The notes under the pieces: model-generated
Database searches by the model: none
What the model saw: only the letters and a program-made list of their open reading frames with translations
Told to the model about the DNA's origin: nothing
Translations under genes and position numbers: made by a program
Shown: positions 35,455-37,531 of the stretch, in pieces
Position numbering within the stretch: the stretch's first letter is position 1
Layout: each line of letters opens with the position of its first letter
Assembly: GCA_024638625.1 (NCBI GenBank)
Contig: JAHEJY010000008.1
Location: forward strand, 1 to 42,903
Direction of reading: 5' to 3'
Source of the DNA: Actinomycetes bacterium
GTDB lineage: Bacteria; Actinomycetota; Acidimicrobiia; Spongiisociales; SHLN01
DNA length: 42,903 nucleotides

Positions 35455-36411
35455 ATGGCAGCACCACGAGCGGTGCGTCCAAATCCCGTAATCGATGAAC
35501 GGGGACGACTGACTACCGATCTGGTGAGTCAGTATTTATCCGCGATCGGTGACTATGACCTGTTGACGGCCGACCAGGAAGTCGAGCTGGCCCAGGCCAT
35601 CGAAGCGGGAGACGCCGCACAAAAGCAACTAGACAAACAAAAAGTATCGACTCAACGACGCGAACAACTCAAACGACAGGTGCGGCTCGGCAATCGAGCG
35701 AAGGACACGTTCTTGAATGCGAACCTTCGTCTCGTGGTCTCCAACGCCCGCCGGTATGCAAATGCCAACGGACTGGACTTTCTGGACCTCGTCCAGGAAG
35801 GGAACCTCGGCTTGATCAGGGCCGTAGAAAAGTTCGATTGGCGAAAGGGATTCAAGTTCTCGACCTATGCCACCTGGTGGATTCGTCAAGCGATCACCCG
35901 GGCGATTGCACAGCAATCACGGACAGTTCGGATTCCCGTCCATCTGCACGACACAGTTGGAACCGTTCGTCGCACACAGGCTTCGATGAAGGCAGACCTC
36001 GGCCGCGACCCCACTGCTGAGGAGCTGGCTGAAGAGACCGGCCTCGAACTCGAGAAAGTCAAAATGGCGCTCGAGGTCTCGGACACGGTTTCACTCGACA
36101 CCCCGGTAGGCGAAGACGGCGACGCATTCCTGGGCGATTTCATCCAGGATGCCGCCGCCGAAAATCCGCAGCAAGTTGCCGTGGTTTCGGAGGTCACCGA
36201 TGCACTCATGGGTTCGATCGACAAGCTACCGGAGCGCGAGGCCAAGATCTTGACGCTCCGCTATGGACTGGCCGACGGCCGTCCCTGGCCGCTCAAAGAG
36301 GTCGCAGCCGAGGTCGGACTCACACCCGACCGGGTTCGCCAGCTCGAGCGCAGCTCGATCGCCCGGATCCGTGAGGACACGGACTGGACCGAGGACCCCC
36401 GCAGCAACTAG
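35455..36411 (+). CDS. RNA polymerase sigma factor, group 2 sigma-70 (SigB/HrdB-like)
   Basis: A 318-residue primary-like sigma factor without the long region 1.1. Region 1.2 is [27 protein letters not shown]; region 2 is [34 protein letters not shown] and [22 protein letters not shown]; region 3 starts with [10 protein letters not shown]; region 4.2 is [19 protein letters not shown]. All parts needed to read -10 and -35 boxes are present. The length fits alternative, non-essential group 2 factors rather than the housekeeping RpoD. Strong ribosome binding site; its own terminator follows. No anti-sigma factor is adjacent. Confidence 0.92.
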
Positions 36412-36443: not shown

Positions 36444-36475
36444 AAGAAGTGGCAGCCTCGCGGCTGCCACTTCTT
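36444..36475 (+). terminator. Intrinsic terminator after sigma factor gene
   Basis: AAGAAGTGGCAGCC and GGCTGCCACTTCTT form a perfect 14-bp stem with a TCGC loop, followed by T-rich sequence and located 33 bases after the sigma stop codon. The A and T tracts inside the stem would let it work in both directions. Confidence 0.88.
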
Positions 36476-36538: not shown

Positions 36539-37168
36539 GTGCGCGGGATCGATCTGTTCCTCAACCTGGCCTACGTCACATATGTCGTTGCCCCGGCCAT
36601 CAAGAACGAGTTGTGGTTACGCATACTTCTGGCGATCAACGCGATCGCATTCTCGATCTGGGGGACACTGATAGGCAACGGTTCGGTGATCTTCTGGAAC
36701 GTACTTTTCGCAACAGTCAGCGCCTTCGCCATCGTGCGGCTGCTCAGAGAGCGCAGAATTGTCGTCTTGCCACCGGACGTCGAGTCGGTCCGTGACAGCT
36801 TGTTCCCCGCGGTTTCTAATCGCGACTTTCTCTTGTTCTGGAGTCTGGGCGAGACTCAACGGATCACCGATGGGAGCCTCACAGTTGAGGGTCAACCGGT
36901 AGCCCGGCTGTTCCTCCTCGTGAATGGTGCGGCCTCGGTGCGTATAAGGGACGAGGAAGTCGCTCAACTAGGAGCCCATCAATTTGTTGGCGAAATGGCA
37001 TTCGTCACCAGCCAGCCTGCATCTGCAAGCGTGCGGATTACGCAGCCCACCAGCGTTCACTCCTGGGCATTTTCTGACCTGGAAACCCTCAACTCCTTAG
37101 AACCCCGCTTGGTGGCCCCACTATTGAGAACCGTGAACCGTGATCTGGCAGAAAAGCTGCGTGTGTGA
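36539..37168 (+). CDS. Popeye-like membrane protein with cyclic nucleotide-binding-like domain
   Basis: A 209-residue protein arranged like the Popeye (POPDC) family: an N-terminal membrane domain of about three helices (LAYVTYVVAPAI, WLRILLAINAIAFSIWGTLI, VIFWNVLFATVSAFAIVRLL) and a cytoplasmic beta-roll domain from about residue 85. Popeye-like points are IFWNVLFA, the roll segments FLLVNGAASVRI and FVGEMAFVT, the Trp in SVHSWAF and the end VNRDLAEKL. The roll lacks the canonical CRP-type phosphate-binding cassette, so any nucleotide binding would be atypical, as in animal Popeye proteins. It starts at GTG 36539 after GAAGGA. Function in bacteria is unknown. Confidence 0.78.
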   Translation: MRGIDLFLNLAYVTYVVAPAIKNELWLRILLAINAIAFSIWGTLIGNGSVIFWNVLFATVSAFAIVRLLRERRIVVLPPDVESVRDSLFPAVSNRDFLLFWSLGETQRITDGSLTVEGQPVARLFLLVNGAASVRIRDEEVAQLGAHQFVGEMAFVTSQPASASVRITQPTSVHSWAFSDLETLNSLEPRLVAPLLRTVNRDLAEKLRV

Positions 37169-37198: not shown

Positions 37199-37531
37199 GT
37201 GCGCACGATCTTGTTCGTTCACTGGAATGCCGGCGAGGCAGCCGAACTCATCAAGCCACTACTGCGTCGTTGGGCTGTCGAGGTCGAATGCGACGATGGG
37301 GCCGCGGTATGGCGGAAAGTCAAAGAATCGGCCCCCCGTACGGTGGTGATCTCCCTCGATCGTCTACCTTCGCACGGTCGTCAGACGGCTCTTTCCATCC
37401 GAAACCCATCGTTGCCCCTGATCTTCGTCGGGGGCGAGCCCGACACGGTCAAGAACTTGAAACAAGAGATTCCAGAAGCGGTTTTCACCAGCCACAGCGA
37501 GCTGTCGAAGGTACTCGCCGGCCTCGGCTAG
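37199..37531 (+). CDS. Small degenerate receiver-like protein
   Basis: A 110-residue single-domain protein with the beta/alpha alternation of a response regulator receiver: strands ILFVHW, VEVECDD, TVVISLD, PLIFVGG and AVFTSH. The paired acidic residues after strand 1 are missing and the loop after SLD is one residue short compared with receivers, so phosphorylation is doubtful. The GTG start has no ribosome binding site. It lies 30 bases after the Popeye-like gene on the same strand and may work with it. The receiver call is by pattern only. Confidence 0.6.
   Translation: MRTILFVHWNAGEAAELIKPLLRRWAVEVECDDGAAVWRKVKESAPRTVVISLDRLPSHGRQTALSIRNPSLPLIFVGGEPDTVKNLKQEIPEAVFTSHSELSKVLAGLG

Follow-up and report, generated by a model that had tools for sequence, protein, structure and literature searches.

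A Popeye-like membrane protein family of bacteria and uncultured phages with an arginine-less cyclic-nucleotide-binding domain

Results

The gene and its domain matches

The window (the whole stretch of DNA analysed, 42,903 nucleotides) contains an open reading frame at exactly 36539-37168 on the + strand, which starts with GTG and encodes a protein of 209 aa. The preliminary description of this DNA had placed a gene at just these coordinates, and comparison of the frame with its orthologue at locus L034 (79% identical) revealed purifying selection (pN 0.136 vs a saturated pS of 0.75). On the basis of the reading frame, the Pfam matches, the AlphaFold2 model and this selection, the product is described here as a POPDC-like protein with three predicted transmembrane helices and a non-canonical cyclic-nucleotide-binding domain (CNBD). 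A sigma-70 factor of the RpoD/SigB type (318 aa, 35455-36411, + strand, assigned by Pfam) lies upstream and a receiver-like protein (110 aa, 37199-37531, + strand) downstream; both had been named as neighbours and both are present.

The full-length protein matched the PF04831 (POPDC1-3) model with 31.2 bits (E 2.8e-7, residues 12-207; curated cut-off 28.1) and PF00027 (cNMP_binding) with 33.9 bits (residues 115-181; curated cut-off 27.5). When the protein was cut in two, the transmembrane half (residues 1-85) gave 27.5 bits on PF04831 (E 3.8e-6, cut-off 28.1) and no other convincing match, and the other half matched PF00027 and not PF04831. The same split of four divergent relatives had a like outcome for both halves, with 28.0-30.0 bits for their transmembrane halves on PF04831; the exception was L006, where this half additionally matched PF10688 (Imp-YgjV) above the cut-off of that family. 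Since the PF04831 match resides in the transmembrane half alone, the Popeye assignment does not depend on the generic match of the CNBD. The PF04831 model scored here may itself contain bacterial sequences. No unrelated family matched the protein better than Popeye; the only comparable match was PF00027, the fold superfamily which contains the Popeye domains.

Predicted structure and membrane topology

The AlphaFold2 model, obtained with an alignment of 33 relatives, had a pLDDT of 92.7. It consists of helices 2-20, 24-45 and 48-72, followed by short helices, a beta-roll (105-177) and C-terminal helices (178-208), and thus bears out the three N-terminal helices and the beta-roll described earlier. 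According to the model and the hydropathy, and for the second and third also the alignment, the first three helices are predicted to span the membrane: helix 1 (aa 2-20, 36542-36598, + strand), helix 2 (aa 24-45, 36608-36673, + strand), which starts at a conserved (K/R)(D/N)xLWLR motif, and helix 3 (aa 48-72, 36680-36754, + strand), with the conserved W53/N54 and RLLRERR at its end. The CNBD beta-roll (aa 105-177, 36851-37069, + strand) was assigned by AlphaFold2, Foldseek and PF00027, and the top list of the Foldseek search of the PDB was made up entirely of CNBD proteins (3gyd, MloK1, PKG, PKA-R, CRP; best E 3.9e-9). The last strand contains Trp176 (37064-37066, + strand), the Trp noted in the preliminary description; it is conserved in 123 of the 127 members which have a residue there. 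The C-terminal helix (aa 189-209, 37103-37165, + strand; AlphaFold2), with RDLAEKLRV at its end, is expected from other CNBDs to serve as the ligand lid or dimer helix.

Since the loop before helix 2 is charged and RLLRERR follows helix 3, the positive-inside rule would place the CNBD in the cytoplasm and the N-terminus of the three-helix bundle is probably outside. POPDC proteins follow the N-out, C-in plan too.

A profile of the transmembrane part alone found nothing significant among the PDB sequences, and no POPDC structure. Fold matches in BFVD prompted consideration of a PnuC/SemiSWEET-like membrane bundle, which was dropped because a comparison of profiles gave no match to PnuC (P 0.14). 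YgjV-type inner-membrane proteins (PF10688) have a similar three-helix module and differ in lacking a CNBD. Comparison of the POPDC-like profile with YgjV-like proteins of Acidimicrobiia (P 2.4e-4, probability 43%) is suggestive of a relation between the two membrane modules. In two Acidimicrobiia loci (L187:1096-1770 and L188:1486-2097) the YgjV-like module is fused to a different soluble domain; judged from the suggestive profile match, it may be a shared membrane anchor.

The pocket lacks the phosphate-binding arginine

The phosphate-binding cassette of the window protein, FVGEMAFVTSQPASASV (aa 149-165, 36983-37033, + strand), is non-canonical in the 129-member alignment: Glu152 is kept and Ala161 occupies the place of the Arg that binds the cAMP phosphate. 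This Arg (PKA RI-alpha Arg209 position) was present in 0/129 family members, the position being occupied by Ala (122), Thr (5) or Pro (2) and never by Arg or Lys; the members come partly from related phages, so that the counts do not represent independent events, and nonetheless the Arg-less pattern extends across phyla. Among ordinary CNBDs used as controls the Arg was kept in 30 of 32, a set coming nearly all from the same class and comprising 34 partial matches minus two fragments of the POPDC-like family. A Gly of the beta2-beta3 loop, which co-evolves with the phosphate Arg in cAMP binders (PMC2246266), was found in 0/130 POPDC-like members vs 25/32 control CNBDs.

The Glu of the GE pair was detected in 129/129 members, the Phe at +3 likewise, and so was the whole pattern GEM.F; the window protein has GEMAF and PASASV where POPDC has DSPE and FQVT. 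Few parts of the protein are as well conserved as the cassette core F(V/I)GEM(S/A)F, which suggests that the pocket is retained. Since the phosphate Arg is absent from all 129 members, plain cAMP binding is not to be assumed. The cAMP binding of animal Popeye proteins, mentioned in the preliminary description, can not simply be transferred to this family, DSPE and FQVT being absent as well.

Distribution of the family in bacteria

In the phylum, 3 of 297 genomes had a PF04831 match (E <= 0.001), as against none of the 14 control genomes. Full-length relatives in the class occurred in two other sampled genomes, G527 (65% identity) and G114 (38%), and the same-genus genome G706 (locus L177, matching L034) carries a relative at 79% identity. 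Scanning of 84,980 species genomes yielded 43 loci, a count which is too low because two strict peptide patterns were used; most were in metagenome-assembled genomes. These loci belong to Planctomycetes, Bacteriovoracaceae, Alpha- and Betaproteobacteria, Myxococcota, Nitrospinota, Ignavibacteria/Kapaibacteria, Acidobacteria and Acidimicrobiia. In a Bdellovibrionota order 14 of 129 genomes had one PF04831 match each. The family is distributed patchily, and every genome checked had a single full-length copy. PF04831 was matched by 31 of the 33 diverse aligned members (E <= 1), the stronger ones reaching 51-59 bits, and the membrane and CNBD parts remain joined across phyla and phages. In two Acidobacteria loci (L053:5539-6447 and L075:5365-6354) a different membrane domain, with DUF417/DoxX-like matches in the alignment scan, is apparently joined to an arginine-less CNBD.

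Members in uncultured phages

At least 103 uncultured viral contigs with the POPDC-like family could be found in the IMG/VR scan (L079-L158, e.g. L154:4941-5591). The viral genes examined had 29-35% GC and the five proteins tested scored 51-57 bits on PF04831. These contigs carry phage genes, i.e. a GH108 endolysin, a peptide deformylase, the DNA polymerase III alpha subunit and a weak late-sigma match, and a T4-type Gp23 capsid gene was present on 4 of 12 viral contigs tested (E about 1e-75). Judged by their make-up and sample names, the contigs are presumably mostly marine. The family had no match among the isolate phages of INPHARED and none in PHROGs, and the fold library includes a phage entry under the name 'Popeye protein conserved region'. 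In the tree, a quick one with long branches, the phage sequences grouped together next to Bacteriovoracaceae, the two jointly being supported by an SH-aLRT of 98, and the Acidimicrobiia group with the window protein was placed apart from them. As many uncultured phages, some of them T4-like, carry the gene, its product may be a membrane signalling protein of phages that has not been described before.

On some of the phage contigs the POPDC-like gene stands immediately before the GH108 endolysin gene, as in L154:4941-6067, where it is directly upstream; this neighbour cluster was found in 7 contigs, and with such an arrangement one may ask whether the protein takes part in lysis.

Gene neighbourhood

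The gap between the sigma gene and the POPDC-like reading frame contains a terminator-like hairpin (36444-36475, + strand; 14-bp stem, U-rich 3' side, -28.6 kcal/mol, z -6.1). Its arms, AAGAAGTGGCAGCC and GGCTGCCACTTCTT, are near-symmetrical; the hairpin is missing from the output of a simple terminator scan, and L034 has an equivalent one. Since a hairpin of the terminator type separates the two genes, the sigma factor is probably transcribed apart from the POPDC-like gene, and it probably lies outside the POPDC-like system. As a functional partner the sigma factor was rejected, because the hairpin intervenes both in the window and in L034 and the setting is absent in other lineages; the different conservation within the genus (99.4% identity in L034 for the sigma factor vs 79% for the POPDC-like protein) also disfavours it. 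The link to the sigma factor suggested before was not supported, the setting being seen only within the genus.

The downstream gene belongs to no Pfam family. The model of its product had a pLDDT of 92.0 and a receiver fold (best Foldseek match 3eul, E 8e-5), in agreement with the receiver-like character ascribed to it. Where a phospho-Asp would be expected, four residues before Pro57, it has however Leu53, which does not vary among seven relatives, and it lacks the N-terminal acidic pair, therefore the product is a pseudo-receiver. It is a possible co-transcribed partner. The gene order of the POPDC-like protein and the pseudo-receiver is retained in L034/L170 only, and the relatives of the pseudo-receiver in other Acidimicrobiia occur in genomes without a POPDC-like gene.

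In a sister lineage (L035:1-2777) a class III cyclase of 687 aa is encoded 42 bp downstream of the POPDC-like gene on the same strand; judged by eye its catalytic motifs appear intact, and it has a membrane N-terminus. In L055 another possible cyclase is encoded about 4 kb from the POPDC-like gene. Class III nucleotidyl cyclases were present in 13/13 family-bearing genomes tested vs 5/14 controls, and the genome of the window encodes six of these enzymes; such cyclases are common among bacteria. Neighbours in other lineages include a topoisomerase, a CBS protein, a multihaem cytochrome-like protein and TauE. In four Bacteriovoracaceae loci (L041, L052, L055, L062) the POPDC-like gene is located directly before a topoisomerase I-type gene (723-732 aa), sometimes overlapping it. 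No conserved operon was found across the lineages, the neighbours being lineage-specific, and since they vary in this way the gene context names no output.

Discussion

The window protein resembles the animal POPDC1-3 proteins in that three predicted transmembrane helices are followed by a domain of CNBD fold from which the canonical phosphate-binding Arg is missing. POPDC1-3 possess an extracellular N-terminus of 20-40 residues which carries glycosylation sites, their C-terminal tail is variable, and their affinity for cAMP is about 100 nM. The window protein differs in lacking the glycosylated N-terminal extension and in having almost no C-terminal tail; in the AlphaFold2 model its first helix begins at residue 2 and the last one ends at about residue 208 of 209. 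The hosts are likewise different, being bacteria and phages. By eye, the bacterial F(V/I)GEM(S/A)F would stand at the place of the POPDC F(L/I)DSPE(W/F), with the same flanking aromatics. In animal POPDC the canonical cassette is absent and F(L/I)DSPE(W/F) and FQVT are used instead (PMC6562197, PMC5872366), whereas the bacterial family lacks DSPE and FQVT and retains the canonical ribose Glu. Since these motifs are missing, we regard the family as Popeye-like, a variant distinct from the POPDC1-3 proteins. Thus the Popeye-like assignment made earlier is upheld by the curated PF04831 match above the cut-off, which is due to the transmembrane half, and by the wide bacterial family, and it does not extend to the hallmark motifs of POPDC.

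With the canonical CNBDs (CRP, MloK1, PKA-R, PKG) the family shares the fold, the PF00027 match and the cassette Glu for the ribose 2'-OH. It differs from them in the absence of the phosphate Arg and of the beta2-beta3 Gly coupled to it, and the protein has no DNA-binding, channel or kinase domain.

Taking these features together, we consider it likely that the protein is a bacterial Popeye-like membrane sensor, which responds to a nucleotide-like ligand via a non-canonical pocket. The class III cyclases in all 13 family-bearing genomes tested and the adjoining cyclase gene in L035 speak for such a sensor, whereas the restriction of this neighbour to one lineage and the wide occurrence of class III cyclases in bacteria speak against it. 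The three-helix bundle, with its N-terminus probably outside, would anchor the cytoplasmic CNBD, and the protein is probably dimeric. The CNBD would take a small nucleotide-like ligand by the non-canonical cassette, in which the invariant Glu could still grip the ribose 2'-OH, and no Arg would be available for a cyclic phosphate. Since the Glu is kept and the Arg is absent, the ligand would be either a cyclic nucleotide held otherwise, as in animal POPDC, or an uncharged relative, e.g. a nucleoside. Ligand binding might shift the C-terminal helix and in this way alter the membrane packing or the contact with a partner, the signal being passed on through the C-terminal helix or the membrane bundle.

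Three other explanations are each unlikely in our judgement. The protein could be a membrane-tethered receptor of a purine nucleoside and not of a cyclic nucleotide, like the inosine-binding trypanosomatid PKA regulatory subunits. In these the same Arg is lost in favour of polar residues, the first Glu is kept and nucleosides are bound with nanomolar affinity (PMC10959531); the replacement of Arg by Ala, Thr or Pro and the retention of the first Glu in all our members is a similar pattern, and trypanosomatid-type PKAR chains were among the better PDB matches of the family profile, 6flo being the T. brucei PKAR (PMC10959531). However, the second Glu, which serves the ribose 3'/5' OH (PKARI-alpha position Ala202), is Ser or Ala in 129/129 members, thus the known nucleoside signature is incomplete, and the POPDC-like family is membrane-anchored, which is a further difference from PKAR.

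It is similarly improbable that an ordinary CNBD was equipped with an unrelated three-helix anchor, the membrane resemblance to Popeye being convergent or compositional. The transmembrane half of the window protein is near the cut-off (27.5 vs 28.1), and the double match of the L006 membrane half to PF04831 and PF10688 would also fit such a coincidence. On the other hand, PF04831 matches are rare in the genomes searched (3/297 in the phylum, 0/14 controls, 14/129 in the Bdellovibrionota order), the stronger members reach 51-59 bits, and the membrane part accompanies the CNBD part across phyla and phages.

An equally doubtful explanation is that of a ligand-free scaffold, in which the CNBD fold would have been retained for protein contacts alone. 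It would account for the fact that no member keeps the phosphate Arg, and there are several CNBD families whose non-canonical cassettes serve different ligands or functions (PMC2246266), but the strong conservation of the cassette core speaks against it.

Finally, a defence-type membrane effector opened by the cyclic nucleotide of a neighbouring cyclase, similar to Pycsar PycTM (receptors in the membrane which cyclic pyrimidines activate; PMC11224242), is very unlikely: the broad CNBD type is the same, PycTIR profiles find the CNBD part, and in L035 the membrane-CNBD gene is followed by a class III cyclase matching PycC profiles, but no cyclase adjoins the window gene or the gene of any other family locus examined, L035 being the sole lineage with an adjacent one, the phosphate Arg is lost, the gene is carried by T4-like phages, unlike an abortive-infection effector, and the PADLOC matches fall in the CNBD only, the one exception being a KwaA match at chance level (E 0.068), with no transmembrane-effector model matched (PADLOC may hold no PycTM model).

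The reviews (PMC6562197, PMC5872366, PMC4918794) regard the Popeye domain as exclusive to POPDC proteins and trace it back to animals and some protozoa; to them its cAMP site is unique and arose independently, CRP of bacteria being the closest relative. In the open-licence papers searched nothing was found on bacterial or phage Popeye proteins, and the POPDC reviews contain no bacterial members. Since the Pfam model already recognises these proteins, automatic annotation may label some of them as POPDC-domain proteins. As a tentative proposal, for which we would claim only a modest chance, the Popeye architecture of a three-helix bundle plus an arginine-less CNBD could be prokaryotic in origin, animal POPDC having descended from the bacterial/phage family, and T4-like marine phages could use the protein to read or interfere with the nucleotide signalling of the host or, beside the endolysin, to time lysis.

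POPDC mutations lead to heart-rhythm and muscle disease. The bacterial relative has the same membrane-plus-CNBD plan in a compact protein of 209 residues, which makes it a simpler structural target and a candidate ancestor, and it offers a direct test of which ligand is bound by an arginine-less CNBD. The bacterial family may thus help to explain the origin and the ligands of the Popeye proteins.
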